Assembly: GCF_021513275.1 (NCBI RefSeq) | Contig: NZ_CP090978.1 | Span: forward strand, 124,001 to 188,000 | Direction of reading: 5' to 3' | Source of the DNA: Paenibacillus hexagrammi | Lineage (GTDB): Bacteria; Bacillota; Bacilli; Paenibacillales; NBRC-103111 | Length of the DNA: 64,000 nt | Position numbers and translations under genes: made by a program | Notes under the pieces: generated by a model | Databases searched by the model: none | What the model was told of the DNA's origin: nothing | Seen by the model: the letters and a program-made list of their open reading frames with translations, nothing else | In this document: in pieces, positions 40,545 to 56,188 of the stretch | Layout: the number at the start of each line of letters is the position of its first letter | Numbering within the stretch: position 1 is the first letter of the stretch

Positions 40545-41580
40545 CTACATCCGATGCCTGCTCACCGTCCAGCGCTCCCAGAAGGCTAAATCCGGCTCGA
40601 TCAGCGGACGGCTTAGTCGGCGGATACGCTCCTGCAGCAGCACCCAGGTCAGCAGACCGGCCATCAGGAAGACAGCCGCGATTTGGAGCGGGCTTTGAAT
40701 ATGAGCAAAGATTCCCGTTGCGATGGCGGTCTTTGTAATGATGGCATGAAGCAGGAATACATACACAGTGTGGTTGCCCCATTCGGTCATAGTGGCTCTT
40801 CTCAGGGGAACCAGACTGAGGAAGCACAAGGAAGCAAAGACCTCAAGTACGTAAACGCCCAATCGGTAGATACCGGCATACCAGGCGGTGAATCCCAACT
40901 CGCGGAATGTAAAGCTACTGTAAAGCCATTTGGGGTCGATCGGATGCACGTATGCGAATAGTAGCAACGCAGCGGTGCCTACTGCGCCTGCCCATTTTAT
41001 TTTGGCCGCTAATGCAGTTGGAAGCATTTCTGACCGAAAATAGTAGCCTGCTAGAAAGAATGGGAAGAAGACAAAGGTTCTCGAAAAGCTCAGCCATGCT
41101 CCGATAAAAGGAGCGTAACCGACGGCGATTCCCATTAGGACGGACACGATGAAAGGATGCTTTATTTTCGCAAAGATCAGTAGAAGCAGTTTCCAGCAGA
41201 AGTGGCTGAACAGGAACCAGAGCAGTGAGTAAGGCATGAAGAACGAGTACCGGACGCCCGGTGCATGAAAGATAAGCACATCGAGCAGGGAGTACAAGCT
41301 CTGAAACACGAGATAGTGGTAGAAGATATGCTGCAAGCTTGATCCCGGGGATGTCGAGGTGAAAGCTTTTGGAGAAATAGCCAGTCACCATGGCGAACAT
41401 CGGAATATGAAACGTGTAAATGCCCAGATATAAGGTATGCAGGGCTGTATGTTGATGAATCAATGGCTCGATGAAGTTGGCAATGACAACAAGCAGAATC
41501 AGTAGAAATTTAGCGTTCAGCATGTACGCATCCGAATCGGAAGAGCTCTTCTCTATAGGATTCACGGTAAAGACCTCCAT
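40545..41580 (-). CDS. Membrane acyltransferase (acyltransferase 3 family), one frameshift
   Basis: About 344 residues and 9-10 helices when joined. The N-terminal piece (AKFLLILLVVIANFIEPLIH, FHIPMFAMVTGYFSKSFHLD) has the family's FHxPxF/GYF pattern. The rest (HIFYHYLVFQSLYSLLDVLI; SFSRTFVFFPFFLAGYYFRS; WGNHTVYVFLLHAII) is one frame over. Removing one base at the AA at 41335-41336 restores GIKLQHIF. The enzyme transfers acyl groups to sugars or wall polymers. A half-matching Fnr box at -41.5 with TACACT suggests anaerobic expression. The start has a weak ribosome site. Confidence 0.8.
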
Positions 41581-41662: not shown

Positions 41663-41705
41663 TGTGATGGATCTCACAGTGCAAACGGCAAGGAAGACTT
41701 ACAAT
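41663..41705 (+). promoter_or_regulatory. Fnr box and -10 element of the second hemerythrin gene
   Basis: TGTGATGGATCTCACA (41663-41678) and TACAAT (41700-41705) imply a start near 41712, with the box at -41.5. Confidence 0.85.
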
Positions 41706-41739
41706 GGTGCCATTAGCAGACTGGAGGAGGCATTCTACC

Positions 41740-42264
41740 ATGATCATGGATATGGAATATTCGTATGAAGAAGCGCATAGCGCTCGCTTTCAGCAAGTGT
41801 TGGAACGGTTGAAGCAGGAGCATGTTGCGTTAAAAAGAGAGCTGGAGCACGTTCAGGAACTAACCGGTCATATGGCAGCCAAGCTGGGCACCGAAGAAGC
41901 AAGAAAGCTCTTGAGAGAGATCAAGCAGGAGATGGAGACGCTGTTGTGTAAGCTGGAAGAGCATGAGGAGTGGGAAGAGGCGGAAGTGCTGCCCGTGCTG
42001 GCCGGGTATGCTTCCCAGGGATTGGAGCCTAGCTTTTTGACATCAGCTTGGGTCTTGGAGGAGGAGCACAAGCAGACGGAGCGATTCGTACGCTCGTTTC
42101 TGGCCTATGCGGAACAGTGTGAGACGGCAAGCCTGCCTAAGTTGAAGAAGGCTGTCTCGCTGCTCTGTGTGGCATGCTCCGTTGTGGAGGATCATCTGCT
42201 AGCGGAAGAAGAGACGGTGCTGCCGGTTGCGGAGGAAATTTTGAACGAGTGTCAGGACGAATAA
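41740..42264 (+). CDS. Hemerythrin HHE-domain protein, paralogue
   Basis: 174 residues, homologous to the protein at 26488: LKQEHVALKRELEHV, KLEEHEEWEEAEVLPVL, WVLEEEHKQTERF and VEDHLLAEEETVLPV. Metal-binding His and Glu are kept. ATG 41740 lies 9 bases after GGAGGAGG. Monocistronic, with an Fnr box upstream and a strong terminator downstream. It probably binds O2, NO or iron during oxygen limitation, at the edge of the nitrate-reduction block. Confidence 0.85.
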   Translation: MIMDMEYSYEEAHSARFQQVLERLKQEHVALKRELEHVQELTGHMAAKLGTEEARKLLREIKQEMETLLCKLEEHEEWEEAEVLPVLAGYASQGLEPSFLTSAWVLEEEHKQTERFVRSFLAYAEQCETASLPKLKKAVSLLCVACSVVEDHLLAEEETVLPVAEEILNECQDE

Positions 42265-42409: not shown

Positions 42410-42456
42410 AGTGATTTTCCCTCACAGTGCGGTACCGCCTCCCCATGGTTTAATAC
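42410..42456 (+). promoter_or_regulatory. Variant Fnr box before the nitrate-reduction operon
   Basis: AGTGA-TTTTCCC-TCACA (42410-42426) has both arms but a 7-base spacer instead of 6. A TTTAAT/TAATAC -10 lies at 42449-42456. The extra base falls in a C-run, where this sequence often shows indels. Confidence 0.6.
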
Positions 42457-42493
42457 ATACAGATGATCAATCAGCGAAGGAGCAATGATAAGT

Positions 42494-43534
42494 ATGGATC
42501 GAGCATTCGCATCAAAATTCGCCAAAAGCGTGTTCCTCACCGTATGCGGGTTAGTCATATTGATGGGCATCGGATCAAGAATGTTTACGCATGTTGATTT
42601 GGCTTTGTATGGATACATGGTAGGCACGGTTGTGTTCGTATGCGGGTTCTTTTACCGCTTTATCGCGTGGGGAGAGCGTCCCCCGACCAAGATTATTTTG
42701 AAAAAAGGCATCAAGCTGTTGTTTCGCAAAAGCACTCCTCAGACAGCCACAGAGCATCTGCTCACGTACCGGTTCATCTGGAACCGCGGCTGGTATCGCT
42801 GGACGCAGCACGTGCTGCTGGGATGGGGCTGTGTGCTATCGGCATTCGTCACCTTCCCTCTCGTATTCGGTTGGATGTACTTCACGATGAGCGAGAACGG
42901 AACCTACACGGTTGTGGGCTTTGGCATCAACATCATGAAAATCAAGGCGGACGGCATGCTCGGATTTCTGTTCTACAACGCTTTGAACATTACGGCTTTC
43001 ATGGTCATCGGCGGTGTATGTATGGCGCTGTACCGCAGAATCAAGAACATGCAGGCGAGAGCTGAGCAGACGCTGATTTATGATTTTCTTCCTTTATATA
43101 TGCTGCTGTTTGTCAGTGTTACGGGGCTAGCGCTCACCTTCTGCAACATCTTCCTGCATGGCTACGGCCATCCGGTTGTGACGCTGATTCATCAATGGTC
43201 AGTGATCGTGACGCTCATCTATATTCCTTTCGGTAAATTGGCGCATATCCCGTTCCGTCCCATGAGCGTGTTAGCAAGAAATTACCGTCAGCATTACGCA
43301 GAGCAAGCGACCAAAAGCTGCAAGGTATGCGGCAACGGCTTCGTCTCGGTGGAGCAGTCCAATGACGTAATCAACGTGCTGAAGGTTAACGATATCGAAT
43401 TCAAGACCGAAGAAGGCTTCCATTTGGCTGAACTGTGTCTGCCATGCCGCCGCAAATACAGAATGTCTCGCTTTACCGGAATTCCGACTCACCAGATTCG
43501 CGTCAAGGAGGCCAACCAGAATGCCAAAGGATAA
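42494..43534 (+). CDS. Membrane cytochrome b-like subunit with a C-terminal CxxC/CxxC domain
   Basis: About 346 residues and five or more helices. It has His residues that could bind two hemes (TQHVLLGWG; IFLHGYGHPVVTLIHQWSV; FGKLAHIPFRP), as in NarI-type quinol oxidases. The cytoplasmic C-terminus carries CKVCGNG and CLPCRRK, a possible zinc or iron site facing the molybdoenzyme. It is the first gene of the operon, overlapping the NasC-type gene by 14 bases. It is inferred to oxidise menaquinol for nitrate reduction. ATG 42494 is preferred; ATG 42485 is only 2-3 bases after AGGAG. Confidence 0.72.
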   Translation: MDRAFASKFAKSVFLTVCGLVILMGIGSRMFTHVDLALYGYMVGTVVFVCGFFYRFIAWGERPPTKIILKKGIKLLFRKSTPQTATEHLLTYRFIWNRGWYRWTQHVLLGWGCVLSAFVTFPLVFGWMYFTMSENGTYTVVGFGINIMKIKADGMLGFLFYNALNITAFMVIGGVCMALYRRIKNMQARAEQTLIYDFLPLYMLLFVSVTGLALTFCNIFLHGYGHPVVTLIHQWSVIVTLIYIPFGKLAHIPFRPMSVLARNYRQHYAEQATKSCKVCGNGFVSVEQSNDVINVLKVNDIEFKTEEGFHLAELCLPCRRKYRMSRFTGIPTHQIRVKEANQNAKG

Positions 43535-45696
43535 ATTTTTTAAAGTCATCGCTAATAAAAACCATCCGAATGAAGAGCTGGTTCCCACACACTGCTCCTA
43601 CTGCGGGATGCAATGCGGGATGAACCTTCGTGTAGATAAATCAACGAATACCATTATCGGCGTTGAGCCGAGATATGACTGGCCCGTTACCCTAGGCAAA
43701 ATGTGTCCGAAAGGCGTAACCGCCTATCAACAGACCAATCACGATGACCGCTTGCTGCGCCCGTTGATCCGTGATGACGCTTCGCTCAAAGGAACGAAGG
43801 AGGGTTTCCGGGAAGCCAGCTGGGAAGAGGCATACGACCTGATCGTGAAAAGATTTCAAGAGCTGCAGCACAAGCACGGCAAGGATTCGCTGTCCGTATT
43901 CAGCGGCGTTTCGATGACGAATGAGAAATGCTACCTGACCGGCAAATTTGCCCCGGGTTGCTCTGCAAACGCGCTACATCGACTACAACGGCAGGTTCTG
44001 TATGTCCAGTGCCGCTGCAGGCTTCCTCCGCAGTCTTGGCGTAGACAGAGGCTCGACGCTGCCATGGACGGATTTGCACGAGACGGATTGCTTGTTTATT
44101 GCCGGCAGCAACACGGCTGAATGCCACCCAACCTCGATGTTTCGGGTATGGGAAGTGCAGAACCGGGGCGGCTACCTGATCGTAGCAGATCCCCGTGAGA
44201 CGCCGATTGCCCGCCGTGCGGACGTCCATCTGGATTTGCGACCGGGTACGGACTTGGCGCTGGCCAACTGCATGGTCAACCTGCTGATTCAAAACGGGTA
44301 TGCCGACGAGAAATTTGTAGCCGACCACACCAACGGCTTTGAAGAGTTAAAAGAGGTTGTGAAGGAATTCACACCTGAATATACGAGCGAAATCACTGGC
44401 GTCGCCGCTGAAAAGCTGATCCGCGCTGCCGAAATTTACGGCAAAGCGCCCAATGCCATCGTCATGTTTGCCCGGGGCATCGAGCAGCAGCATAAAGGAG
44501 CGGATAATGTATCGGCTTACACGAATATGTGCCTCGTTACCGGCAAGATTGGCCGTCCGAAGGCGGGCGTGGCGACTTTCACCGGACAAGGCAATGGCCA
44601 GGGCGGAAGAGAACACGGACAGAAGTCCGACCTGCTTCCTGGTTACCGCAAGCTGACGAATCCCAAGCATGTGGAGGAAGTGTGCAAGGTATGGGGCATC
44701 ACCCCTGAAGAGATGCCTCAGCCCGGCGTATCGGCATATGAGATGTTCGAGCTGATGGAGCAGCAGACGATTCGCGGCTTGTACCTGCTCTGCTCGAACC
44801 CGGCGGTATCTGCGCCGAATCAGAATTATGTGCGCGCAGCGCTCAAGAAGCTCGACTTCATGGTGTGCGCCGACATTTACTTATCGGAATCGGCTGAATT
44901 CGCTGATGTTGTGCTGCCATCGGTCACCTGGTCCGAGGACGAAGGGACGGTAACGAATCTCGAAGGACGGATTATTAAAATCAACAAGGCGCAGGAGCCG
45001 ATCGGCGAATCGAAGCCTGACTGGCTCATCGAGGTTGAGCTGGCGGAGCGCCTTGGACGGGGACAGTACTTCCGGTATCTGAAGAGCGCCAGGGACGTAG
45101 CTGACGAGTTCCGCCTCGCTCGTTCCAAAGGCGGTTACGCCGATTACTACGGCGCAACCTGGGAGAAGATCGAGAAGCAAGACGGCGTCTTCTGGCCGTG
45201 CCGCAGTGAGGAAGACCCGGGAACGCCGCATATGTTCCTCGATCACAAGTTCTACCACCCAGACGGCAAGGCCAAGCTGTGCGCGCTGCCTTACAGACCG
45301 CCGGCCGAGGAGCCCTGCGAGCAGTATCCGCTGCGCCTGACGACAGGCCGGGTTGTATATCACTATCTGTCCGGGAACCAGACGAGAAGAATTCCTTTTC
45401 TGCGGGACATGTGCCCGGAGCCTTATGTGGAGGTTCACCCTGAAACAGCGGCTAAGTACAACATTCAGCATGATGAAGTCGTCCGGCTGTTCACTCGCCG
45501 CGGCGAGGCTTTCTATAAAGTGAAAATCATCGAAGCGATTCGCAAAGATACGGTGTTTGTACCGTATCATTTCGGACACGAGCAATCCATTAATCTGCTC
45601 ACGATCCCGGCGCTGGACCCGATGTCCCGCATGCCGGAATTCAAAGCCTGCGCAGCTCAAATTGAAAAGCAACCGGAGAGGATGAGCACCCGATGA
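43521..45696 (+). CDS. nasC: NasC-type molybdopterin nitrate reductase, one frameshift
   Basis: About 725 residues when repaired. The N-terminal [4Fe-4S] ligands are Cys25-x2-Cys28-x3-Cys32 and Cys62 (THCSYCGMQCGM; KMCPKGV). The bis-MGD region includes GRPKAGVATFTGQGNGQGGR followed by EHGQK, almost the B. subtilis NasC sequence. The C-terminal LTTGRVVYHYLSGNQTRR binds the second pterin. The frame breaks at CCCC 43951-43954: three C restore GKFARVALQTRYIDYNG. As written it gives readings ending at 44120 and 45696. No TAT signal, so it is cytoplasmic. NasC normally works in assimilation. Here a cytochrome b, ferredoxin and Rieske protein flank it, suggesting respiratory use. Confidence 0.87.
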
Positions 45697-46257
45697 AACA
45701 GCATCTCTATATTGAAATGGACAACTGCATCGGCTGCCGCAGCTGCCTGGCTGCCTGCACGCAGTGCGGAGGCCATGACGAAAGAAACCGCAATTACGTG
45801 TACGAGGTAGATCCTTTCGTGTCACGGCAGACCATCCCCGCTGATGTGTCTGCACTGCGTGATCGGCTTGCGCTCGGAGCTGTCCGGCTCAAGCGATCCA
45901 AATTACAGAAGAGGGTGCCGTTCTCTCGGCGCTAGTTGAGAAGTGTATCGGCTGCCAGAACTGCACGATCGCTTGCCCTTATGGTATTCCAAAATTCAGA
46001 TGAAGAACAGAATTTGATGTATAAATGCGATTTGTGCTACGACCGTACCAAGGAGGGTATTCCTCCCCATGTGCGCCTCCGTTTGCCCGACGAATACGCT
46101 GCAATGGTTAACGGACGAAGAACTCGCAGCCAAGAAAGCCGCCCATCAGTTAGGCAAATGGACGGCCAGTCATCAGCCGTTTGACCCGCTCGAAGGGGAA
46201 ACGAATGTGAAGATCAGCCTGCCGGGCATTCTGCAAGGCAAGCAAAAGTTATTCTAA
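45693..46257 (+). CDS. Polyferredoxin electron-transfer subunit (NrfC/DmsB-like), four frameshifts
   Basis: About 188 residues when repaired. The intended reading has four Cys clusters: DNCIGCRSCLAACTQCGG; MCLHC then CARSCPAQAI; KCIGCQNCTIACPYGIPKF; CDLCYDR then MCASVCPTNTLQ. Single-base breaks lie at CCCC 45836-45839, GTGATCGG 45859-45866, TTCAGATG 45996-46002 and CCCC 46065-46068. The ATG overlaps the nasC stop (ATGA). Every Cys is retained across the breaks, which argues against long decay. It would pass electrons from the membrane subunits to NasC. Confidence 0.78.
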
Positions 46258-46281
46258 TTTACCGAAGGCGAGGTGACCTGT

Positions 46282-46878
46282 ATGCCACAGGAAAAGGAAC
46301 TGGGACAAGGACAAGGACATCAACGAGAACATCTACAAGAACATCAACAAGGCCATAAGCGCGACAACAATCACAGTCCCTTTCAGGAAGATAATTATAC
46401 GCATAATATTCGCAAGAACGATGAGAGAAAGCTGGATCGCCGCGGATTTATGAAGACGCTGGTAGGAGCGGCGGGCGTGTTCGCCGTTTCCACGCTCCCT
46501 TGGGGAACTTTGGCTGCACGGGAGCTTACAGGTCTTAAGAAGAAAGCATACCCGAAGCTCAAGATCGCCGATATCCGTTCCCTCCAGGTTGGGGACGCAG
46601 TGGAGTTTGCGTATCCGGGCGAGCATGATTCGGCGCTGCTGATCAGGCTCGGTGACAATGAATATAAAGCGTACCAAAATGCCTGCACGCATCTCAAATG
46701 CCCCGTGTTCTGGAGCAAGGAGCAGGATGAGATGGTGTGCCCCTGCCATCACGGTATCTTCGATGCAAGAACCGGCATTCCAACAGCCGGACCTCCAAAG
46801 CGCCCTCTGCCCGAGGTGCTGCTGAAGCAGGAAAGCGGCGCGATTTATGCGATAGGAGTGAAGCGTTATGAAGCGTAG
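46282..46878 (+). CDS. TAT-exported Rieske iron-sulfur protein with His/Gln-rich N-terminus
   Basis: 198 residues. The first 50 are rich in His, Gln and Asp (GQGQGHQREHLQEHQQGHKR). A TAT signal follows (DRRGFMKTLVGAAGVFAVST). The Rieske ligands are ACTHLKC (near 134) and CPCHHGIFD (near 154), complete CxH/CxxH for a [2Fe-2S] cluster. This is the fold of bc-complex iron-sulfur subunits, placed outside the membrane. ATG 46282 lies 8 bases after GGCGAGG. With the cytochrome b it would form a quinol-oxidising pair, as in haloarchaeal NarBC. The long His-rich stretch before a TAT signal is unusual. Confidence 0.85.
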   Translation: MPQEKELGQGQGHQREHLQEHQQGHKRDNNHSPFQEDNYTHNIRKNDERKLDRRGFMKTLVGAAGVFAVSTLPWGTLAARELTGLKKKAYPKLKIADIRSLQVGDAVEFAYPGEHDSALLIRLGDNEYKAYQNACTHLKCPVFWSKEQDEMVCPCHHGIFDARTGIPTAGPPKRPLPEVLLKQESGAIYAIGVKRYEA

Positions 46879-47056
46879 CTACCTAGGTGTTCTTCTGCTG
46901 TGCGTCGTGCTGTTTCTCAACATTATCTGCACCCAGAAGGCAGTAAATGCCTATTATTTTGAACACTATCGCACCGTCATTTTCTATGCTGTCTGCAATG
47001 CTATGCTGTTTCCAATCGCCTTATGGATCTATCAACGGGAGCGTGATGTTCAATGA
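46868..47056 (+). CDS. Small two-helix membrane protein
   Basis: 62 residues: SYLGVLLLCVVLFLNIICTQ and VIFYAVCNAMLFPIALWIYQ are two membrane spans. It overlaps the Rieske gene by 11 bases and the NarK gene by 4, so it is translated as part of the operon. No family known. Its place suggests a small subunit or assembly factor of the membrane complex. Confidence 0.65.
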   Translation: MKRSYLGVLLLCVVLFLNIICTQKAVNAYYFEHYRTVIFYAVCNAMLFPIALWIYQRERDVQ

Positions 47057-48588
47057 ATACGATCAAAAAAATACAATTACCGCTGCAAACGGTCAGTCTC
47101 ATAGCCGGATTCATGGTATGGGTCATCCTTTCATCCCTAATGCCGTTTATTAAAGAAACGATTCATCTCACAGCAACGCAGCTTACTTGGGTTACAGCGG
47201 TTCCCGTTCTGATCGGTTCTGTAATGAGGATTCCCATCGGGTACTGGACCAATCGGTACGGTGCACGCAAGCTGTTCGCGATTAGCTTCGTGATTCTGCT
47301 TGCGCCTATATATTGGGTCAGCCAGGCGGATTCCTTCATGGATCTAATCATCGGTGGTCTTTTCCTTGGTATCGGCGGAGCGGTATTTTCCGTAGGCGTA
47401 ACATCATTGCCGAAATATTACCCAAAAGAACGGCACGGCTTTGTGAACGGAATCTACGGCGTCGGTAACCTGGGAACTGCGATTTCTACGTTTGGAGCGC
47501 CGATTGTTGCGAACCAAATTGGTTGGTCCAAAACAGTTCTGGTATACAGCGTGCTGGTGGTTGTCATGGCGGCATTGAATTTTTTTGCCGGAGACCGCAA
47601 AGAACCGTCGGTTAAAGCTTCTCTTGTTGAACAGATCAAAGGAGTAGCCGGAAACTCGAAGCTTTGGTTCTTATGCTTATTCTACTTCCTGACCTTTGGC
47701 TCTTTCGTAGCCTTTACGGTGTACTTACCGAATTTCATGGTCAGCAGCTTTCACCTATCCAAGGTAGATGCGGGCATGCGCACAGCAGGATTCATTGCTC
47801 TCGCCACAGCGATGCGTCCAATCGGTGGATACCTGGGAGATAAATTCAATCCTTTTAAAATATTGATGTTCTTGTTTGCCGGTTTTACAGCAGCCGGAGT
47901 GCTGCTATCCTTCGCCCCTTCCATGACCTGGTATACCGTGGGCTGTTTGACCATCGCTGTATGCGCGGGAACGGGTAACGGCACGGTTTTCAAGCTGGTC
48001 CCTATGTACTTTACGAAACAAGCAGGTATTGCCAACGGTATTATTTCCGCCATGGGAGGCCTCGGAGGCTTCTTCCCGCCGCTAATGCTCACGTTCCTGT
48101 TCAAGCTGACAGGTCACTATGCCATCGGTTTCATGGCGTTATCCGAAGTGGCGCTGGCGAGCTTAATCCTCATCATCTGGATGTATTATCAGGAGAAGCT
48201 GGGTTTATCGTCCAAAATTATTGAGAACACTGTAGAAGGTATCATGGTTACGGACTTAAGCGGTAATATCCGCTCGGTCAATGCGGCCTTTACCGAGCTG
48301 ACCGGCTATGAAGCGAATGAAGTGGTTGGTTTAACGCCAAGCGTGCTGAAGTCCGGAAAGCAGGACCGCGTCTTTTACGATACGATGTGGGATACGCTGC
48401 GCGGGCAAGGCTTCTGGCAGGGTGAGATTTGGAATCGCAAAAAAAGCGGCGAGATTTATCTGGAATGGCTGACCATAAGCGCAGTAAGAAATGACGCTGG
48501 AGACGTGGTGTACTACGCGGGCATGTTCAGCGATATTACCAAGCAAAGAGGCTTACAGCAGGAAGGAAGATGGACCGATGCCGTGTGA
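47053..48588 (+). CDS. narK: NarK-type nitrate/nitrite transporter fused to a PAS domain
   Basis: 511 residues. Residues 1-390 form a 12-helix MFS carrier of the NarK family: SVMRIPIGYWTNRYGARKLF, the nitrate signature-like GGLFLGIGGAVFSVGVTSLP and GNGTVFKLVPMYF. Residues about 395-505 form a PAS domain (IIENTVEGIMVTDLSGNIRS, NAAFTELTGYEANEVVG, FYAGMFSDITKQ-like end). No kinase, GGDEF or HTH follows; the protein ends at a start overlap with the next gene. Carrier-PAS fusion is unusual. The PAS could gate transport or dock with a sensor. It closes the nitrate-reduction part of the operon. Confidence 0.88.
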   Translation: MNTIKKIQLPLQTVSLIAGFMVWVILSSLMPFIKETIHLTATQLTWVTAVPVLIGSVMRIPIGYWTNRYGARKLFAISFVILLAPIYWVSQADSFMDLIIGGLFLGIGGAVFSVGVTSLPKYYPKERHGFVNGIYGVGNLGTAISTFGAPIVANQIGWSKTVLVYSVLVVVMAALNFFAGDRKEPSVKASLVEQIKGVAGNSKLWFLCLFYFLTFGSFVAFTVYLPNFMVSSFHLSKVDAGMRTAGFIALATAMRPIGGYLGDKFNPFKILMFLFAGFTAAGVLLSFAPSMTWYTVGCLTIAVCAGTGNGTVFKLVPMYFTKQAGIANGIISAMGGLGGFFPPLMLTFLFKLTGHYAIGFMALSEVALASLILIIWMYYQEKLGLSSKIIENTVEGIMVTDLSGNIRSVNAAFTELTGYEANEVVGLTPSVLKSGKQDRVFYDTMWDTLRGQGFWQGEIWNRKKSGEIYLEWLTISAVRNDAGDVVYYAGMFSDITKQRGLQQEGRWTDAV

Positions 48589-48916
48589 ATTCTCCTTGGA
48601 TCTCTGCTTCATTCGTGAGCATGCGCCTGAACCTTTCCAAGATGTAATCGAGGGGGAACTTCGGAAGCTATTCGCCGGACGCGGAACCTGGTATATCGAT
48701 TGCCGAAAAGAAGCTGGGCTAGACATTGCCGTAGCTGAGGTCAAAGGCTTGGCGGCTTGGGAATCGGAGGAAGAGGTTTTGCGGTATATCGAGGATTTCA
48801 GAGAGAGCAGCCGTGATACAGTGCCGGTGCAGGACTGCTGGGACCATCTTCAAGGCTACCAAGTGCAGGTGACTCCAAAAATTGATGCGGGCTGCTGCCG
48901 CTTACAGAAGAGGTGA
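48578..48916 (+). CDS. Hypothetical cytoplasmic protein of 112 aa
   Basis: Starts MPCEFSLDLCFIREHAPEPF and ends DAGCCRLQKR. It has five Cys and an acidic helix (SEEEVLRYIEDFRE). ATG 48578 overlaps the narK end by 11 bases and follows AGGAAGGA, so it is part of the operon. No family recognised. Two Cys at each end could bind metal. Possibly a maturation factor for the molybdoenzyme complex, as NarJ-type chaperones are missing here; this is inference. Confidence 0.6.
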   Translation: MPCEFSLDLCFIREHAPEPFQDVIEGELRKLFAGRGTWYIDCRKEAGLDIAVAEVKGLAAWESEEEVLRYIEDFRESSRDTVPVQDCWDHLQGYQVQVTPKIDAGCCRLQKR

Positions 48917-48921
48917 AGGCG

Positions 48922-49209
48922 ATGAAATGGGAAGAAGAGCTGTCGTGCTGGCTAGGCACTCCAATTGAGGTTCATATCGAGGATCAAGCAGGACATGATC
49001 CTATCGCGCCGCCGAAGAAGATGACGTTAGGAAAAATTCGTATGACCGACGACAATTACCTGCAAATCTACATGAATGAACACCAGTTTCTCGCGATTCC
49101 TCTTAAAGGTGAGGAGCATACGAGCTATGTGACATCGGAAGAGGGGGCTGTTCTTCATGCCTCCGACCTCGAGGCGCAGCTTGTGTACAAAGTTCATTTT
49201 GGCGTTTAG
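48922..49209 (+). CDS. Hypothetical cytoplasmic protein of 95 aa
   Basis: MKWEEELSCWLGTPIEVHIE, then TLGKIRMTDDNYLQIYMNEH and HASDLEAQLVYKVHFGV: a small beta-rich acidic protein. ATG 48922 is 8 bases after GAGG and 5 bases after the previous stop, so translation is coupled. No family known. Last closely spaced gene of the nitrate operon. Confidence 0.6.
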   Translation: MKWEEELSCWLGTPIEVHIEDQAGHDPIAPPKKMTLGKIRMTDDNYLQIYMNEHQFLAIPLKGEEHTSYVTSEEGAVLHASDLEAQLVYKVHFGV

Positions 49210-49615: not shown

Positions 49616-49818
49616 CGGCCACGGCGGGTTGGCGAACCTGGTGGCTGGCAATTGGCCGCGCTGGCCTGGATGCTCTCCTCCCCCCATAATAGGAAAGAGG
49701 GTGTCCCAAAAGTCATTAAATGACTGAGGGACGCCCTCTTTTTTTGTACAACAAAAAGAAACCTACCTTTGGTAAAATGGAAGTACCACCAACCATTCAC
49801 ATAAAGGAGAGGTTTCTT

Positions 49819-51387
49819 TTGTACATTCAATATACCATGGATCAACTTTGCCTGCCAATGGATTTAGAAGAGGACATTCCCGCAAATCACCTCGTTCGCG
49901 TGGTAAACGCTGCCGTCAACCGTCTCGACGACGCTGTCTTCGACGCGGCTTACCCCGGAGGCGGACGAGATAGCTATCACCCCAAGATGTTAACCAAAAT
50001 CATCATCTATGCGTACACACAACGCATCTACTCCTCTCGCCAGATTGCCAAGGCTGTCCGTGAAAACATCATGTTTATGTGGATCGCAGGCAGGCAGCGC
50101 CCAGACTTTCGTACCATCAACCGCTTTCGTTCGGAACGAATGAAAACTGTACTGGAGACTGTGTTTACGGCCGTTCTTCAATTCCTCGCAGAGGAGAACT
50201 ATGTGCAGTTGGAGCATTACTTTGTGGACGGCACGAAGATCGAAGCCAATGCCAACCGCTATACGTTTGTTTGGGGAAAGGCTGTCGTGAAGCACAAGGC
50301 CAAGCTCCAGGAGAAAGTCCAGACCTTGTTCGCTGCCATTGAAGAAGCCGAGAGGCAAGAAGAAGGAGCACATGAGGGCAGGGATCTTCACGAGCTGGGA
50401 GAGTCATCTGCCATCACAAGTGAAAAGCTGGAACATGCCGTCAAGCAGTTGGAAGAGCGCCTGCAGGAGAAGCCTAAAGATAAACCGCTAAAAAAGGCGG
50501 TGCGTGCGCTCCGCAAGGACTTGCTTCCGCGCCTCCAAAAGTATGAGGCACATGAGATCATCTTAGGAAATCGAAACAGCTACAGCAAAACGGACCATGA
50601 CGCCACATTTATGCGAATGAAAGAAGACCACATGCGAAATGGCCAGCTCAAGCCGGGTTACAACGTACAGATTGGCACTGAAAATCAATTCATTCTCGGC
50701 TACAGCGTTCACCAGCGTCCGACCGATACGCGCTGCCTCATCCCTCATCTGGAGAAAGTAAAATCACAGTTCGGCAAGCTGCCACACACCGTCATCGCAG
50801 ATGCAGGCTATGGCGGCGAGGAGAATTATGACTATTTGGAGCAGAACGAAGTCGAAGCCATTGTGAAGTACAGCACGTACCATCGCGAAAAAAGCAAGGC
50901 ATGGCAAAAGGACATTAGCAAGATCGACAACTGGTCCTACAACAGCGAGCACGATACGTGGACATGCGCAGCGGGACAAACGCTCCATTTTCGTCGGGTG
51001 AGTAAGGAAAAAACGGAAAGTGGGTATGAAATCGAATACCGACATTACCGAAGCACCAGCTGTGAGGAATGCCCGCTGAAGCCGCAATGTACGAAAGCCC
51101 AAGGTAACCGTGAGGTCAAAGTCAGTATGAAGTACTTGCGGTTAAAGGGCCAAGCAAGGCAAAAGCTCCGCAGCGAAGAAGGCTATGCCCTGGCTGTAAG
51201 GCGCATGATCGAGCCAGAGCCCGTGTTTGGTGATATGAAGCACAACCGAGGATTTAAAAGATTTCTGCTTCGTGGCTTACCAAAAGTAAGTCTGGAGGTC
51301 GGATGGCTTTCCCTTGCCCACAATCTACTTAAGAAAGCTGCAATAGATGCTAAAAACCAAGGAGCTATGCGAGAACAGGCCGCATAG
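49819..51387 (+). CDS. IS1182-type transposase
   Basis: About 522 residues from TTG 49819, which lies 6 bases after AAGGAGAGG. The N-terminal domain is DIPANHLVRVVNAAVNRLDD and AAYPGGGRDSYHPKMLTKII. The DDE_Tnp_1 catalytic part has YFVDGTKIEANANRYTFVWG, HTVIADAGYGGEENYDYLEQ and the final MIEPEPVFGDMKHNRGFKRF, the three acidic positions. CEECPLKPQC is the Cys-rich segment usual in the family. The frame is intact and the element may still be active. Confidence 0.93.
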   Translation: MYIQYTMDQLCLPMDLEEDIPANHLVRVVNAAVNRLDDAVFDAAYPGGGRDSYHPKMLTKIIIYAYTQRIYSSRQIAKAVRENIMFMWIAGRQRPDFRTINRFRSERMKTVLETVFTAVLQFLAEENYVQLEHYFVDGTKIEANANRYTFVWGKAVVKHKAKLQEKVQTLFAAIEEAERQEEGAHEGRDLHELGESSAITSEKLEHAVKQLEERLQEKPKDKPLKKAVRALRKDLLPRLQKYEAHEIILGNRNSYSKTDHDATFMRMKEDHMRNGQLKPGYNVQIGTENQFILGYSVHQRPTDTRCLIPHLEKVKSQFGKLPHTVIADAGYGGEENYDYLEQNEVEAIVKYSTYHREKSKAWQKDISKIDNWSYNSEHDTWTCAAGQTLHFRRVSKEKTESGYEIEYRHYRSTSCEECPLKPQCTKAQGNREVKVSMKYLRLKGQARQKLRSEEGYALAVRRMIEPEPVFGDMKHNRGFKRFLLRGLPKVSLEVGWLSLAHNLLKKAAIDAKNQGAMREQAA

Positions 51388-51684: not shown

Positions 51685-52436
51685 CTACATTCGGCAGATA
51701 TCTACAGGGCAATTCTCGCAATGGCAAATATCACGCAGATAAGTTGCATCCTTAATGACGATCATCCCATTGTGATAATCCACCGCATCTTCTTTTTCAT
51801 ATCGCTAAGCATCCGATTGACGTTCTCGCGCGTGGAGCCGATCATGTCGGCCATTTCGGAATTGTTGATTTTATAGTTAATCAGCGTGTGCTCTCCCTGC
51901 GGAACGCCGTAGGAGTTGCTCAGTCGGATCAACAGGGAGCAGAGCGCACCTGGCTTGCCGTACATCATCAAATCGCGAAACTTCGTTTCTGTCATCCGGT
52001 GCATCAGACCCATCCATCTCATGAACTCAATGGCCAGATCCCCGTGCTGCCAGAGCAGCACTTCCAGGTCTTTACGGAGAATGACGCCTACCTCGCAATC
52101 GGAGGTGACCTCCGCGCTGAAGCTTTGCACAGAATCCTGGAAAGGGTCGATTTGACCGAACAAATCTCCCGCTTGATGCAGATATAGGATAAAGCTTTTG
52201 CCCGTTTCCGCCATCTTCGTAATCCGAACCCCGCCCTTGATCACGTAATAGAGCCGGTCCGCCGCATCACCTTCCCAGAATAGATGGTCGCCTTTTTTGG
52301 CTTGCTTAACGTACATGCTGCTTTTCAATTTATCGAAATTCGTTTCCGAGAAAAATGCCTGAATCCCTTTTTGAGCACTGGCTTCTGCCTTCGCGCAAAC
52401 TTGTTTATCGTTTTGAGTCGAACAATTTGTGGCCAT
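51685..52436 (-). CDS. fnr: Fnr-type Crp family regulator, one frameshift before the iron-sulfur motif
   Basis: As read, 224 residues ending at 51762. Cyclic-nucleotide-like beta barrel at about 35-150 (KKGDHLFWEGDAADRLYYVI; GDLFGQIDPFQDS) and a winged helix with recognition segment EMADMIGSTRENVNRML. One extra A in the run complementary to 51793-51797 continues the frame through MKKEDAVDYHNGMIVIKDAT to CHCENCPVDIC, the C-terminal cysteine cluster of Bacillus-type Fnr, ending at 51685. The oxygen-sensing [4Fe-4S] site would thus be complete. The mature protein activates genes at TGTGA-N6-TCACA boxes found throughout the window. The IS element lies just beyond its 3' end. Confidence 0.9.
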
Positions 52437-52770: not shown

Positions 52771-53262
52771 ATGGACTCTTACAGATTGGAAGTGGCGAAA
52801 ATGGCAAATAATCAGGCGGAGCTAACAGACTATCTGGACCAGCTAAGACGCTTATCCTCCAGCGATTTCGCCGCGCTGGCTTCTTTCATAGATCCTCTAT
52901 CCCCTAAGCGTTGGAATTATGCCTGGGGCAATACGAATGAACGTTACTTACAAATGATGATCAAACCGGGACAGGGTTTAGGCGGAACGGCACTTCGCAC
53001 ATGCAGATGGGTGAAGCTCGATGATACAACTTCTAACGCAGCTAAGGCGAGAGGCGAATGTCCTCTTATGCTGGCCGAGCGTTTACAAGCGGCGGCCGCT
53101 TTTCCGATCAAGGAAGAAGGAAGCTTGGAGATTCTAGGGCTTCTTTACATCGGCAAGCGTAACCATTCCAGGTACGAAGATAATGAAACGAAGCCCATTC
53201 AGGAAAATATCGGTAAGCTGTTGCGTTATATGCAGGAGGATATCAAGAAAATCGCGAAATGA
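52771..53262 (+). CDS. nreA: NreA-like GAF-domain nitrate sensor
   Basis: 163 residues. A GAF domain like Staphylococcus NreA, which binds nitrate and inhibits the NreB kinase when nitrate is absent. Shared pattern: SSDFAALASFIDPLSPKRWN, YAWGNTNERYLQMMIKPGQG, LGGTALRTCRW, ECPLMLAERLQAAAAFPIKE. GAGGAG lies 8 bases before the ATG. It heads nreA-nreC-nreB. Confidence 0.85.
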   Translation: MDSYRLEVAKMANNQAELTDYLDQLRRLSSSDFAALASFIDPLSPKRWNYAWGNTNERYLQMMIKPGQGLGGTALRTCRWVKLDDTTSNAAKARGECPLMLAERLQAAAAFPIKEEGSLEILGLLYIGKRNHSRYEDNETKPIQENIGKLLRYMQEDIKKIAK

Positions 53263-53343: not shown

Positions 53344-53997
53344 ATGCTGAAGATACTGGTCGTAGATGATCATGCAGTGGTAAGATCGGGACTTATGATG
53401 CTGCTTCATGGCAAGCATGACATGGAGGTCGTCGGCGAGGCTGCAGGTGGTGAAGAAGGTATTCAAGCCGCGCAGCTGCTGAAGCCGGACGTTGTGCTCA
53501 TGGATTTGAGCATGCCCCCCGGTATAGACGGACTAACGGCGGCGGAGAGACTGAGGCAGCTGATGCCCGATCTGGCGATCCTTATTTTAACGATGCACGA
53601 TGATGACGAGTATCTGTTCAGAGCCATCCATGTCGGGGCATCGGGTTACATATTGAAGAGTGCGCCGCATGATGAGCTGCTGACAGCAATCCGTTCCGTT
53701 GCAGCCGGCAATGCTTACTTGTATCCAACGGCGACCAAGCGGCTCATGAATGAATATATGGAAAGAATGAAGAATGGGGAGCATACGGATACCTATGAGG
53801 CGCTGTCCGAGCGGGAGAGAGAAATTCTTGCCCTTATTGCGAAGGGCTTTTCTAATAAAGAAATTGCCGAACAGCTGATCATTAGTGTAAAAACGGTGGA
53901 ATCCCATAAAAGCAACGTCATGGAAAAGCTGGGGCTTCGGACTAGACCGGAGCTGGTGAAATACGCCGCGAAGAAGGGGCTGCTGAACTTTGAATAA
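53344..53997 (+). CDS. nreC: NreC-like LuxR-type response regulator
   Basis: 217 residues. Receiver domain 1-120 with phospho-acceptor Asp54 (DVVLMDLSMPPG), the DD pair at 8-9, Thr and Lys104-type region (ILTMHDDDEY; GYILKSAP). LuxR helix-turn-helix at 150-210 (LSEREREILALIAKGFSNKE, IAEQLIISVKTVESHKSNV). GGGAGG lies 6 bases before the ATG. It should bind GGG-N4-CCC palindromes before nreA and the formate/nitrite channel. It overlaps nreB by 8 bases. Confidence 0.88.
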   Translation: MLKILVVDDHAVVRSGLMMLLHGKHDMEVVGEAAGGEEGIQAAQLLKPDVVLMDLSMPPGIDGLTAAERLRQLMPDLAILILTMHDDDEYLFRAIHVGASGYILKSAPHDELLTAIRSVAAGNAYLYPTATKRLMNEYMERMKNGEHTDTYEALSEREREILALIAKGFSNKEIAEQLIISVKTVESHKSNVMEKLGLRTRPELVKYAAKKGLLNFE

Positions 53998-55096
53998 GGA
54001 TCAGGAACCAATATATCCTGAGGTCATTGGAGAGAACGTTGCACAGCTCCTGTCGCGATTAGACGAACAAATCTCAGACGCCGATGTGCTGCAGGATCTG
54101 AAGCAATCGCTGAAACAGCTGTCAGATGTGAAGTTTGCTCTTGATGAATCCTCCATTGTGGCTGTTACCGATGCCAAGGGAAAGATCCAGTATGTGAACG
54201 ATAAGTTTTGCGAAATATCGAAGTACCCCCGTGGGGAGCTCCTCGGGCAGGATCACCGGATTATTAATTCTTCCTACCATGATAAAGAATTCATGTCCGA
54301 TTTATGGAGAACGATATCCTCGGGCCGGGTTTGGCGCGGAGAGATCAAGAATAAAGCCAGGAATGGAACCTACTACTGGGTGGATACGACCATTGTTCCT
54401 TTCGTGGATGAACAAGGGAAACCTTATCAGTATTTGGCGATTCGTAACGAAGTGACGCAGCTTAAGCGTGCGGAGGAAGAGCTGAAGCTTTTGATGGCAC
54501 AGGTATTGCAGATTCAGGAGGAAGAACGGAGGAAGTTCTCGCGCGAGCTGCACGATGGTATCGGGCAGAGCTTGTTCTCGCTGCTCATTCAGATGGATCG
54601 GCTGATTGGTGAAAATCCGCAATCCGAATTGGGTGATCTCCGCCAGCATGTCTCCTCGATCATCGAAGAAGTTCGCAGTCTGGCATGGCAAATTCGTCCG
54701 TCCGTTCTGGATGACCTGGGCGTCGTTCCTGCGATTCGCACCTACATTGAAAACTATACGAACCATTACGGTATCGCGGTCAAGCTGGAGAACAGCCTGC
54801 GCAAGCGGTTGGGTGCTGTAGAGGAAACAACGATTTACAGGGTCATACAGGAGGCACTTACGAACATCGCCAAGTATGCGGATGTCTCCGAAGCGGAGGT
54901 TGCCGTACGGGATATGCAGTCGTATATTGAAGTGCAAATCAGAGATCAAGGCAAGGGCTTCGAAAGGTCGGGCAGTGCAAAAGGAGTCGGGCTGCTTAGC
55001 ATGGAAGAGCGGGCCAAGGGCATCGGCGGCAAGCTGGATATTGCTTCAGTGCCGGGCCGGGGAACAACGGTGACTCTAACGATTCCGGCAAAATAG
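53990..55096 (+). CDS. nreB: NreB-like PAS histidine kinase lacking the Fe-S cysteines
   Basis: 368 residues, TTG start inside the nreC end. PAS domain at 50-160 (VTDAKGKIQYVNDKFCEISK; GRVWRGEIKNKARNGTYYWV). HisKA_3 region follows with the phospho-His in SRELHDGIGQSLFSLLIQMD (near 187), then an HATPase with VIQEALTNIAKYADVSEAEV and GKGFE/GVGLLSMEERAKGIGG. Cytoplasmic, no helices. Staphylococcal NreB senses O2 through four PAS cysteines; this protein has one Cys in all. It may sense something else or rely on NreA. Confidence 0.87.
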   Translation: MNKDQEPIYPEVIGENVAQLLSRLDEQISDADVLQDLKQSLKQLSDVKFALDESSIVAVTDAKGKIQYVNDKFCEISKYPRGELLGQDHRIINSSYHDKEFMSDLWRTISSGRVWRGEIKNKARNGTYYWVDTTIVPFVDEQGKPYQYLAIRNEVTQLKRAEEELKLLMAQVLQIQEEERRKFSRELHDGIGQSLFSLLIQMDRLIGENPQSELGDLRQHVSSIIEEVRSLAWQIRPSVLDDLGVVPAIRTYIENYTNHYGIAVKLENSLRKRLGAVEETTIYRVIQEALTNIAKYADVSEAEVAVRDMQSYIEVQIRDQGKGFERSGSAKGVGLLSMEERAKGIGGKLDIASVPGRGTTVTLTIPAK

Positions 55097-55139
55097 AGGG
55101 TGAGCTTCGTTAGCTAACACCGTCCAGATTAGATGTTGG

Positions 55140-55182
55140 AAGGTCTCGTCTCCACAGTAAAGTGGGGAGGAGGCCTTTTCGT
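55140..55182 (+). terminator. Terminator of the nre operon
   Basis: AAGGTCTCGTCTCCAC (55140-55155) and GTGGGGAGGAGGCCTT (55162-55177) pair with few mismatches; TTC follows. Confidence 0.8.
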
Positions 55183-55191
55183 ATTTTTCTT

Positions 55192-55255
55192 TAGGGAAAA
55201 CCCCGCATACTTTGTGATTTTTTTCACTTACAATCCTGCAAGCATCGTCTACAAT
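55192..55255 (+). promoter_or_regulatory. NreC-like and Fnr sites of the formate/nitrite channel
   Basis: TAGGG-AAAA-CCCC at 55192-55204 resembles the NreC motif. TGTGATTTTTTTCACT (55213-55228) is the Fnr box. TACAAT (55250-55255) puts the Fnr box at -41.5. Confidence 0.75.
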
Positions 55256-55324
55256 GGATCCAAAGGCGTACGAGTGTGGCATGCAAGAAGGAGAACGCGC
55301 AGTACGATAAGGGAGGGGACGGCT

Positions 55325-56188
55325 ATGGGATTCATGAAGCAGGAGGAAATATGGGAACATTCCGTAGAAGCGGGTTTGAGAAAGGTTCATCTGCCTATTC
55401 GCAGCCAGCTGGTGTTAGGATTTCTAGGCGGAGCGTATATCTCGCTCGGCTTTCTTCTGTATATACGGGTCAGCGCCGCTGTTCCCCCTGCATGGAGCGA
55501 TTTCGGAGGTGTACTCGGTGCGCTCTTCTTTCCGCTCGGGTTAATTGCCACCTTGCTCGCGGGAGGAGAGCTGCTGACCGGGAATATGATGGCCGTTGCC
55601 GCTGCCTGCTTCTCAGGCCGTCTGGGGCTGCGGCAGCTTATGCTCAATTGGCTGATCATTACGCTTGGTAATTTTGCAGGGGCATTATTCGTTGCTTATA
55701 TGTTTGGACATCAAGCGGGGCTGACCGAGCATGGCATCTATCTCGCCAAGCTGGTCAAGATTGTTCATGCCAAGACGGCGGAGCCATTCCTCCAGGCCTT
55801 AATATCGGGAATCGGCTGCAACTGGCTCGTCGGTCTTGCGGTATGGCTCTGCTATGGCGCTAAAGACGGCGCGGGCAAAATCATTGGCATCTGGTTTCCG
55901 ACGATGGCGTTCGTCGCTATCGGCTTCCAGCACGTAGTCGCCAATATGTTTATCATTCCGGCCGCAATATTTGCCGGGCAAGCGACGTGGCTGGAGTATT
56001 TGAATAACTTCGTTCCTGTATATATAGGCAATGCGCTCGGAGGTGCGCTGTTCGTTGCAGGGTTGTACCGGTTAGCGGATCGGAAGCTGTGGACAGGGGC
56101 ATCACCCAGTTCACTGAAATCCTCCTCCTCCACCAAGTCCGTTTCTCATATTCAATCCGGATCTTCCTCGTCCCATTTGCGGGAGTAA
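55325..56188 (+). CDS. Formate/nitrite transporter family channel (FocA/NirC)
   Basis: 287 residues, six helices. Family motifs: GGAYISLGFLLYIRVSAAVP, GELLTGNMMAVAAACFSGRL (the first omega loop), GIGCNWLVGLAVWLCYGAKD, FQHVVANMFIIPAAIFAGQA with the central pore His. The last 30 residues are Ser-rich and unlike the family. ATG 55325 follows GGGAGGGG. The channel passes formate, nitrite or other small anions. Being beside nre genes and NirBD partners points to nitrite; pflB in the same regulon keeps formate possible. Confidence 0.9.
   Translation: MGFMKQEEIWEHSVEAGLRKVHLPIRSQLVLGFLGGAYISLGFLLYIRVSAAVPPAWSDFGGVLGALFFPLGLIATLLAGGELLTGNMMAVAAACFSGRLGLRQLMLNWLIITLGNFAGALFVAYMFGHQAGLTEHGIYLAKLVKIVHAKTAEPFLQALISGIGCNWLVGLAVWLCYGAKDGAGKIIGIWFPTMAFVAIGFQHVVANMFIIPAAIFAGQATWLEYLNNFVPVYIGNALGGALFVAGLYRLADRKLWTGASPSSLKSSSSTKSVSHIQSGSSSSHLRE

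Follow-up and report, generated by a model that had tools for sequence, protein, structure and literature searches.

Which kind of enzyme is formed when a NasC-like molybdoenzyme is encoded among genes for a cytochrome b, a ferredoxin, a Rieske protein and a NarK transporter? The question is raised by an operon within 64,000 nucleotides of Paenibacillus hexagrammi DNA (contig NZ_CP090978.1, positions 124,001 to 188,000; termed the window), in which a sequence-only reading had seen an unusual quinol-wired respiratory nitrate reductase. We found that the core of this idea was well supported as a reading of sequence data, by conservation, gene context, regulatory sites, the rarity of narG in genomes with the operon and the case of Bacillus sp. 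DNRA2, and that the naming of the catalytic subunit as NasC did not.

Gene order and state of the window copy

The open reading frames of the window form an operon in the order proposed, with overlapping ends: 14 nt between the cytochrome b and molybdoenzyme genes, 4 nt between those of the molybdoenzyme and the ferredoxin, 11 nt between Rieske and the 62-aa protein, and 4 nt between the latter and narK.

42485..43534, + strand: NarI-like cytochrome b subunit (structure, profile and alignment comparisons)
43521..45696, + strand: molybdopterin (MopB) catalytic subunit, NasC/Fdh lineage; frame broken near 43951
45693..46257, + strand: four-[4Fe-4S] ferredoxin subunit; frame broken, four small length differences
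46273..46878, + strand: Rieske protein with TAT motif RRGFMK (profiles and motifs)
46868..47056, + strand: conserved 62-aa protein with two hydrophobic segments (conservation, position)
47053..48588, + strand: NarK-type nitrate/nitrite transporter with a C-terminal PAS domain (profiles)

The 62-aa membrane protein was missing from the earlier gene list; it is the positional equivalent of a DUF6755 protein in Deinococcus and has no DUF6755 match itself. NarK does belong to the operon, but it is not a plain NarK, given its fused PAS domain.

The core order of cytochrome b, molybdoenzyme, four-cluster ferredoxin, TAT-Rieske and small membrane protein was found in 78 of the 80 best named loci, where the core genes overlap as well, and, by gene reading, on two Deinococcus plasmids. 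Since different families share this order and it recurs in a second phylum, the arrangement is more than chance, and the operon is, on sequence grounds, real and one instance of a widely conserved system.

The genes for molybdoenzyme and ferredoxin lie where they had been placed, but both are split in the record. The molybdoenzyme appears as two ORFs (43521-44120 and 43948-45696), and comparison with Paenibacillus doosanensis (82.4% DNA identity over the operon) revealed five length differences of 1 to 2 nt, one at ∼43951 and four between 45836 and 46058, in a ferredoxin gene whose frame is open in the relatives examined. It is possible, if somewhat doubtful, that this copy is dead or decaying in P. 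hexagrammi, a reading limited to the window copy that leaves the one for the family untouched: two genes are out of frame, four of the differences fall within ∼220 nt, and the Fnr-type site has one base too many (see below). However, the catalytic fragment retains 95% protein identity to P. doosanensis over 580 columns, which against 82.4% at the DNA level argues for selection until very recently, and a nasC elsewhere in the P. hexagrammi record is also split, which fits record errors. Because the window gene is split, the orthologue from locus L038 was used for family scoring.

Lineage of the catalytic subunit and features of its partners

Among NCBIfam models, NasC (NF047855, cut-off of 1,100 bits) is nearest to the catalytic subunit, yet the L038 orthologue scored 860.7 bits and the window fragments 107.7 and 731.8. 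Other operon copies were also below 1,100 bits (∼845 to 905 for unbroken type I, ∼920 to 940 for type II), and a separate NasC of the P. hexagrammi genome reached 1,189.6. In a tree built by a quick method and carrying a long-branch warning, 32 operon rows lay outside the 31-row NasC group (SH-aLRT, 100). The L038 orthologue obtained 50 bits against a cut-off of 1,084 for NarG (TIGR01580) and 331.4 against 930.55 for NapA (TIGR01706), and the catalytic subunit 152.9 against 359.05 for AioA (TIGR02693). With all scores below the cut-offs, we rejected an assignment to any of the NasC, NapA, Aio or Nar families; as judged from family scores and tree, the subunit belongs to a lineage that is sister or basal to assimilatory NasC. 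The motif YNGR[FY]CM[SA]SA, whose Cys we take to be the molybdenum ligand as in NasC, was found in 78 of 80 rows. No TAT signal with RR was seen at the N terminus in the 29 of 80 rows with an anchored start, nor in the window.

The cytochrome b is predicted to have about 6 membrane helices. Our alignment showed that H109, H236 and H254, as well as the tail cysteines C279, C282, C318 and C321, are invariant from Paenibacillus to Deinococcus. The window protein had no Pfam match, and its profile retrieved a single chance match (E of 4.6) among sequences of solved structures. Weak profile matches were obtained to QmoC (8e-8) and, for the Deinococcus homologue (6e-4, 19.9 bits) and the L228 protein (16.1 bits), to Nitrate_red_gam, below its gathering score of 22.9. 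The likeness to NarI thus comes from fold comparison together with these weak profile matches. With a model of middling quality (pLDDT 71, pTM 0.61), the top 8 PDB matches in Foldseek were NarI chains (probability 0.97 to 1.00, E 0.03 to 0.16), none of the matches reaching E 0.001. VIA gave Z scores of 9.2 to 9.7 against NarI (rmsd 5.5 to 6.3 over 174 to 187 residues) and 7.5 for the next entry, although a Z of 9 to 10 may reflect an arrangement common in helical bundles. By its model, then, the cytochrome b resembles NarI in fold.

In NarI, four His residues serve two hemes. H236 and H254 are 18 residues apart, as are H187 and H205 of NarI. The NarI set of four is incomplete in the cytochrome b, where position 119, in the place of NarI H66, is Ser or Ala; H36 may act as a substitute ligand, and is Tyr in two type II rows. 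Judging from these residues, only one of the two NarI heme sites looks complete, a weakness for any route of electrons that leads from the outer side of the membrane to the inner heme.

The tail of the cytochrome, which a simple count of charges puts in the cytoplasm, aligned with HycF (7z0s_F, residues 113 to 165) over 51 residues at 1.9 Å and 26% identity, with a Z of only 5.1. Its Cys pairs are separated by x35, against CxxC-x34-CPxC in HycF, and the coincidence of the four Cys with those of HycF (positions from PMC9474812) was deduced from the aligned ranges (offset 162-163) rather than from a residue-by-residue table. In formate hydrogenlyase, this four-Cys domain touches the ferredoxin and faces the molybdoenzyme (PMC9474812 and structure); the same paper argues against electron transfer via the metal of the domain. 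The modeled tail thus resembles a HycF-like four-Cys domain, a likeness at the level of the domain, the protein itself not being HycF. These features agree with the earlier description of a NarI-like, multi-His membrane protein bearing CxxC/CxxC.

The ferredoxin subunit (∼187 aa) is predicted to hold four [4Fe-4S] clusters. The Rieske protein is complete, as had been proposed, with a TAT motif predicting export and bc-type CTHLxC and CPCH boxes. We rejected the possibility that it or the cytochrome b belongs to a bc complex, as P. hexagrammi has separate qcr-like genes with their own Rieske protein.

Regulatory sites, neighboring genes and distribution

An Fnr-like box had been reported at 42410-42426, upstream of the cytochrome b gene. 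This site is one base too long for TGTGA-N6-TCACA, which we take to be the Fnr-type consensus, and the best properly spaced site upstream of that gene in P. hexagrammi has 4 mismatches. Many relatives carry a proper box at about -75: a site within one mismatch was found in 44 of 80 loci (0.6 expected), and 34 of 80 have none with fewer than 3 mismatches. In the window, an exact site precedes a hemerythrin-like gene that may share the regulation of the operon. The flanking features are as follows.

41663..41678, no strand assigned: exact Fnr-type site, 0 mismatches, upstream of the hemerythrin-like gene
41704..42264, + strand: hemerythrin-like protein; a similar gene, often weakly so, in 17/80 loci, outside the conserved core
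42410..42426, no strand assigned: degenerate Fnr-type site with one extra base in the spacer
48578..48916, + strand: small ORF o112, no Pfam match; similar ORF in 7/80 loci
48913..49209, + strand: small conserved ORF o98, no Pfam match; similar ORF in 47/80 loci
51762..52436, - strand: Crp/Fnr-family regulator (profile)
52771..53262, + strand: NreA-like GAF protein, 69.9 bits (NreA equivalog cut-off, 175)
53344..53997, + strand: NarL/NreC-type response regulator, below the cut-off of the families shown
53990..55096, + strand: NreB-like sensor kinase with a PAS domain and a single Cys (profile, sequence)
55133..56188, + strand: formate/nitrite (FNT) family channel, 211 bits (cut-off, 232)

NreB carries a Cys cluster, and the NreB-like kinase has a single Cys; with the low NreA score, we call these genes NreABC-like rather than NreABC. 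An NreC-like gene was found in 39 of 80 loci.

NarGHI had been noted as absent from the window, and we found none there or in the rest of the P. hexagrammi genome: NarI (PF02665) gave 0 matches at E 0.001 in both, NarG (TIGR01580) 0 matches at E 1e-50 in the genome, and a NapA search of the genome found none. A hidden or separate narGHJI operon was rejected on this basis, with the proviso that a very divergent NarI could escape, given that the cytochrome b itself goes unrecognized by PF02665. Among 392 genomes of the order, the cytochrome b was found in 47, narG in 144 and both in 4, for an expectation of 17.3, a scarcity that is partly due to ancestry. Of 49 operon genomes searched for both genes, narG was present in 1, napA in 5 others, and neither in 43. 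A sample of the class gave 40 matches, three of which contain a TAG, with the cytochrome b in 39 of 398 genomes; a sample of the whole phylum gave 2 of 398, P. hexagrammi being included each time.

Bacillus sp. DNRA2, a soil isolate, carries three such operons, one of them followed by moeA-nrfH-nrfA. In the accessible part of PMC10653820, this strain, on depletion of oxygen, reduces nitrate to nitrite and ammonium, and the authors credit it with nap. We found neither narG nor napA in its assembly, which may be incomplete. DNRA2 is thus a ready test case, as its nitrate reduction is credited to nap, yet no NapA was found.

Proposed function and alternatives

We consider it likely that the operon encodes a menaquinol:nitrate reductase for anaerobic respiration, facing the cytoplasm and built unlike Nar, Nap and Nas. 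From gene context and protein features, we infer that the subunits form a complex, that quinol is the donor and nitrate the substrate. The NarI-like cytochrome b would span the membrane, and the exported Rieske protein on the outer face would probably take electrons from menaquinol and hand them to it. Electrons would then pass from a heme on the cytoplasmic side (H109/H254) through the four-cluster ferredoxin to the NasC-lineage molybdenum subunit in the cytoplasm, the HycF-like tail holding ferredoxin and molybdoenzyme in place and the small two-helix protein serving as a structural subunit. NarK would import nitrate, and the Fnr- and NreABC-like regulators would switch the genes on in the presence of nitrate without oxygen. 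With protons released outside and consumed inside, energy would be conserved.

An exported Rieske protein sits oddly with a cytoplasmic enzyme. An outward-facing enzyme would account for the need of it: molybdoenzyme and ferredoxin would fold in the cytoplasm and be co-exported on the Rieske TAT signal, and electrons would go from quinol via cytochrome b, Rieske and ferredoxin to molybdenum, all on the outer face. Arsenite oxidase AioAB is co-exported in this way, on the TAT signal of its Rieske subunit. The TAT motif is present in 77 of 79 loci and followed by AxA in 50 of 79 rows, and AioB is both the best solved match of the Rieske protein, with bc-type proteins close behind, and its best NCBIfam profile (TIGR02694, 59.5 for a cut-off of 95.65). 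We nevertheless hold this arrangement to be unlikely, since a NarK-like gene in 66 of 80 loci (some only 24 to 28% identical) points to nitrate import and the four-Cys tail appears cytoplasmic. In addition, the Rieske protein of Deinococcus fits b6f/bc-type profiles better than that of AioB, and we noticed no TorD- or NapD-type chaperone on reading the genes of the operons.

That the enzyme draws on the quinol pool for assimilation or redox balancing, without a main respiratory role, seems to us quite improbable. The proximity to NasC among NCBIfam models is in its favor, and 22 of 50 operon genomes have no NasC passing the cut-off, so that an assimilatory part is possible there. In Bacillus bataviensis, a 729-aa NasC encoded with an iron-sulfur protein and a Rieske protein was read as assimilatory (Heylen and Keltjens 2012, PMC3475470), the cytochrome b going unmentioned in the accessible part of that paper; length and neighbors suggest that this set is probably the same operon seen in part. 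Against such a role, NasC is above cut-off in 28 of the 50 genomes, and P. hexagrammi itself has a separate NasC as well as a second cluster that reads as nirB-nirD-nasC-narK. The Fnr-type sites, the NreABC-like genes and nrfHA at one DNRA2 locus point instead to anaerobic respiration. Least probable of all is that another oxyanion is the substrate and that the nitrate genes are nearby by coincidence. In favor of this reading, the solved structures most like the catalytic subunit are those of formate dehydrogenases, with NapA ranking lower; against it, the subunit sits next to NasC in the trees, and the NarK-like, FNT, NreABC-like and, once, nrfHA neighbors concern nitrate or nitrite.

As a cytoplasm-facing menaquinol:nitrate reductase, the system would share with NarGHI a NarI-like cytochrome b, a four-cluster ferredoxin-type subunit, a molybdoenzyme, and nearby NarK and Fnr/NreABC-like regulators. 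It differs from NarGHI by a catalytic subunit of the NasC/Fdh lineage, a short ferredoxin, a cytochrome with one canonical NarI heme site and a HycF-like tail, and the addition of the Rieske and small membrane proteins; no NarJ was noticed. With NasC it shares the MopB lineage, the Cys ligand, a similar length and the lack of a visible TAT signal, but it falls outside the assimilatory clade and is tied to membrane, ferredoxin and Rieske genes. Like HycB/HycF and FdhF of formate hydrogenlyase, it combines a four-cluster ferredoxin, an Fdh-lineage molybdoenzyme and a four-Cys tail of matching spacing, although the tail is fused to cytochrome b rather than to a ferredoxin and no hydrogenase is present. 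As in AioAB, a TAT-Rieske gene adjoins that of a molybdoenzyme of the wider Fdh/NasC/Aio clade, whereas a Cys occupies the molybdenum-ligand place, the AioA cut-off is not reached, and the system has a ferredoxin and a cytochrome b in addition. A cytochrome b and a Rieske protein are also linked to a nitrate reductase in haloarchaeal NarBC with NarGH; here, in contrast, the cytochrome has a NarI-like fold and catalysis is assigned to a subunit other than NarG.

Within our literature coverage, outside which most subscription journals lie, we found no description of the system as a respiratory complex and no report of its activity, expression or complex, and the accessible text of PMC6896113, PMC11388526, PMC13199352, PMC4774088 and PMC10949509 contained nothing on the five-gene system. 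According to the accessible parts of PMC10100899 and PMC7331816, NasC/NasA subunits function exclusively in assimilation, and the latter states that the canonical four-cluster or membrane-anchor subunits do not accompany any member of the NasC/AioA/NapA clade. If our proposal is true, it contradicts both statements. The combination of NarI, HycF, ferredoxin and Rieske modules is also relevant to the exchange of redox partners among molybdoenzymes. If the proposal is right, surveys based on narG and napA miss a widespread route of nitrate respiration, present in 39/398 genomes of the class and accompanied by neither gene in 43/49 operon genomes. We see even chances that the operon defines a class of respiratory nitrate reductase of its own, distinct from Nar, Nap and Nxr. 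Such a class, spread through Bacilli and Deinococcus, would have arisen at or close to the root of the NasC lineage, and in many soil Bacilli that surveys by narG and napA would score negative it would be the chief enzyme of nitrate respiration.

Genes of the operon and their state in P. hexagrammi

Six plus-strand genes with overlapping ends occupy positions 42485 to 48588 of the window, in the order cytochrome b-like membrane protein, molybdopterin enzyme, four-cluster ferredoxin, Rieske protein, a 62-aa membrane protein, and NarK. The sequence-only reading had recognized this overlapping operon but missed the 62-aa membrane protein.

Features in and around the operon (window numbering)
Upstream of the operon: hemerythrin-like gene
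47053-48588, plus strand: NarK with a fused C-terminal PAS domain (profile search)
48578-49209, downstream of NarK: two small ORFs without a Pfam match
49720-51387: long transposase-like ORF (identity by reading)
Downstream of the operon: Crp/Fnr-type regulator gene
Downstream of the operon: NreA-NreC-NreB-like set with an FNT channel

The transposase-like ORF stands between the NarK end of the operon and the Fnr and Nre-like genes. On the minus strand, two overlapping frames at 40545-41580 look by reading like one split membrane acyltransferase gene.

The molybdoenzyme and ferredoxin genes are out of frame in the P. hexagrammi record, and comparison of the operon DNA with that of P. doosanensis revealed five differences of 1 or 2 bases. 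Since the catalytic fragment is 95% identical at the protein level (580 columns) for a DNA identity of 82.4% across the operon, selection acted on the genes until very recently. The frames are open in most relatives read; the molybdoenzyme is also split in P. sp. P25 (L046, L088; genome G224) and in L137, and contig ends cut some of the operon copies. In P. hexagrammi itself, the nasC gene of a second nas cluster is likewise split into two frames (L223, 5222-7329).

Conservation and distribution

A scan of GTDB genomes yielded 226 stretches coding for a relative, the best 80 of which were retained as named loci (L-numbers). The sequence-only reading had suggested looking for its gene order in other Paenibacillaceae. 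The genes run from cytochrome b through molybdoenzyme, ferredoxin, and Rieske to the small membrane protein in 78 of these best 80 loci, from Paenibacillus, Cohnella, Brevibacillus, many Bacillaceae, and others. The two exceptions are L129, which stops near a contig edge, and L127, with a divergent operon and a cytochrome b-Rieske-small protein remnant. In L127 (10001-11600, Paenibacillus phyllosphaerae), the operon is of type II, and the remnant, devoid of molybdoenzyme and ferredoxin, lies a few kilobases away. The divergent type II also occurs in L049, L050, and L219. L228 represents a third form, in which a Mrp-type ATPase-like protein (by reading; 11601-12344) is encoded between ferredoxin and Rieske. 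Four Deinococcus plasmids match, and the gene order is conserved in the two that were read, where the annotations are "MFS transporter," molybdopterin oxidoreductase, 4Fe-4S, Rieske, DUF6755, and then a nitrate/nitrite or MFS transporter. A 65-aa ORF without known family precedes one Deinococcus operon (L249, 7706-7903), and a gene of similar size also precedes the operon in L250. The cytochrome b was detected in 47 of 392 genomes of the order (one, G185, with a 75-residue fragment) and in 39 of 398 genomes sampled from the class, own genome counted.

By tblastn on each of the best 80 loci, a NarK-like gene was found in 66, an NreC-like gene in 39, and an NreB-like gene in 36, counts that take in weak matches (some NarK-like ones at 24 to 28% identity, some on the other strand). 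PAS similarity was seen in 50/80, a count of similarity and not of fusion per locus, and ORFs similar to the second small ORF after NarK in 47/80. The NarK-PAS transporter may double as a redox or nitrate sensor. Within 300 nt 5' of the cytochrome gene, the Fnr-type site TGTGA-N6-TCACA was exact in 26 and had at most one mismatch in 44 of the best 80 loci (0.6 expected from first-order resampled sequence), and the best site had at least three mismatches in 34, these loci being related and not independent.

Subunits of the putative complex

The nearest NCBIfam model of the catalytic subunit is NasC, as the term "NasC-type" had implied, but L038, an orthologue standing in for the split gene, scored 860.7 bits against a cutoff of 1100, which the NasC of the own genome exceeds (1189.6 bits). 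In our second tree, all 31 NasC rows formed one group (support, 100), which included none of the 32 operon rows; the trees were made by a quick method with SH-aLRT only and carry a long-branch warning, and the operon sequences may form either one clade or several basal branches.

A NarI-like membrane protein had been proposed, and the AlphaFold model of the cytochrome b (46 sequences; pLDDT, 71.4; pTM, 0.61) is consistent with it: its eight best PDB matches are NarI chains (probability, 0.97 to 1.00; E value, 0.03 to 0.16, none reaching 0.001). VIA-align gave Z scores of 9.2 to 9.7 for NarI and 7.5 for the next entry, EtfD, values that may reflect a common arrangement in helical bundles. Weak profile matches to QmoC (8e-8, 32 bits versus a cutoff of 300) and, in the Deinococcus homologue, to Nitrate_red_gam (6e-4) agree with this fold. 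H109, H236, H254, and four cysteines are invariant in six rows from Paenibacillus to Deinococcus. H236 and H254 are 18 residues apart, as are NarI H187 and H205. The position of NarI H66 is occupied by Ser or Ala, which leaves the heme site on the cytoplasmic side as the only one of canonical appearance.

Residues 275 to 328 superpose on E. coli formate hydrogenlyase HycF (1.9 Å over 51 residues, 26% identity, Z score of 5.1), with C279, C282, C318, and C321 matching HycF Cys117, Cys120, Cys155, and Cys158, as judged from the aligned ranges (PMC9474812). In the available portion of that paper, the HycF domain contacts HycB, the four-cluster ferredoxin, and is turned toward FdhF, the molybdoenzyme, and the authors argue against electron transfer via the domain's metal (PMC9474812). 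By analogy, we infer that the cytochrome b tail could have a docking role.

The Cys residues of the ferredoxin are arranged for four clusters in 78 of 79 loci, and the protein is akin to subunits of the formate-dehydrogenase, NarH, and HycB types. The Rieske protein has a TAT motif in 77/79 loci and bc-type boxes in 78/79. In bc1, a Ser and a Tyr raise the potential; here, CPCH followed by HG is found without them in 77/79 loci, and such a protein would suit menaquinol. The Deinococcus Rieske is closer to b6f-type profiles than to the AioB one.

Proposed electron route and putative role in nitrate respiration

We propose that menaquinol would be oxidized close to the outer face, with the Rieske protein as the likely first acceptor, and that electrons would cross to the inner heme and pass via the ferredoxin and the [4Fe-4S] cluster of the catalytic subunit to molybdenum, nitrate being reduced in the cytoplasm. 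A simple charge count of loops places both ends of the cytochrome b inside. On the way from the Rieske to the inner heme, the second NarI heme site is incomplete, and a step through H36 paired with H236 is a guess. The main rival to this route would have molybdoenzyme and ferredoxin exported together with the Rieske protein, as in arsenite oxidase; the best solved match of the Rieske is AioB, with bc-type Rieske proteins a close second.

A separate narGHJI operon, which by the sequence-only reading would count against this view if it explained all nitrate respiration, did not emerge: neither NarG nor NarI was found in the own genome, nor was NapA at E 1e-50. It has an above-cutoff NasC and also a second cluster, nirB-nirD-nasC-narK (nirB and nirD named by reading). 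Across the 392 genomes of the order (G000 to G391 in both searches), narG (E 1e-50) occurs in 144 and coexists with the cytochrome b in 4 (G055, G008, G021, and G025; 17.3 expected; Fisher P = 7e-6), a rarity inflated by ancestry. Among 49 operon-bearing genomes, from 50 of the 80 named loci, narG was found in one and napA in five others (own genome added for napA), and 43 showed neither. Niallia endozanthoxylica (G831; L155, L224) has narG and, judging from two NasC-profile scores in the operon range on a single contig, two operons, one of which was read.

We found no published description of such a respiratory complex in the literature searched. In the available text, two MopB superfamily papers treat NasC/NasA as exclusively assimilatory (PMC10100899, PMC7331816), the earlier one stating that canonical partner subunits are absent from all members of the NasC clade (PMC7331816). 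Heylen and Keltjens, in the portion available, link a 729-aa NasC of B. bataviensis, taken as assimilatory, to iron-sulfur and Rieske proteins, and also report narGHJI (PMC3475470). This set is probably the operon described here; if so, B. bataviensis is a further case of coexistence with narGHJI.

Bacillus sp. DNRA2, according to the available part of its description, reduces nitrate in the presence of lactate after oxygen has run out, yielding nitrite and ammonium, and is said by its authors to possess nap (PMC10653820). In its genome (G823), narG was not found, nor was NapA at a loose threshold, the best matches being formate-dehydrogenase-like and operon proteins of at most 144 bits against a cutoff of 931. 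The strain has three operons, two of type I and one of type II, and we suspect one of them to be the reported nap. At E 1e-20, none of the best 80 loci gave a match to nrfA or nrfH, so the nrf neighborhood was seen once: one DNRA2 type I operon (L220, 2019-5756) is followed by moeA, nrfH, and nrfA, which together would make a complete nitrate-to-ammonium unit.
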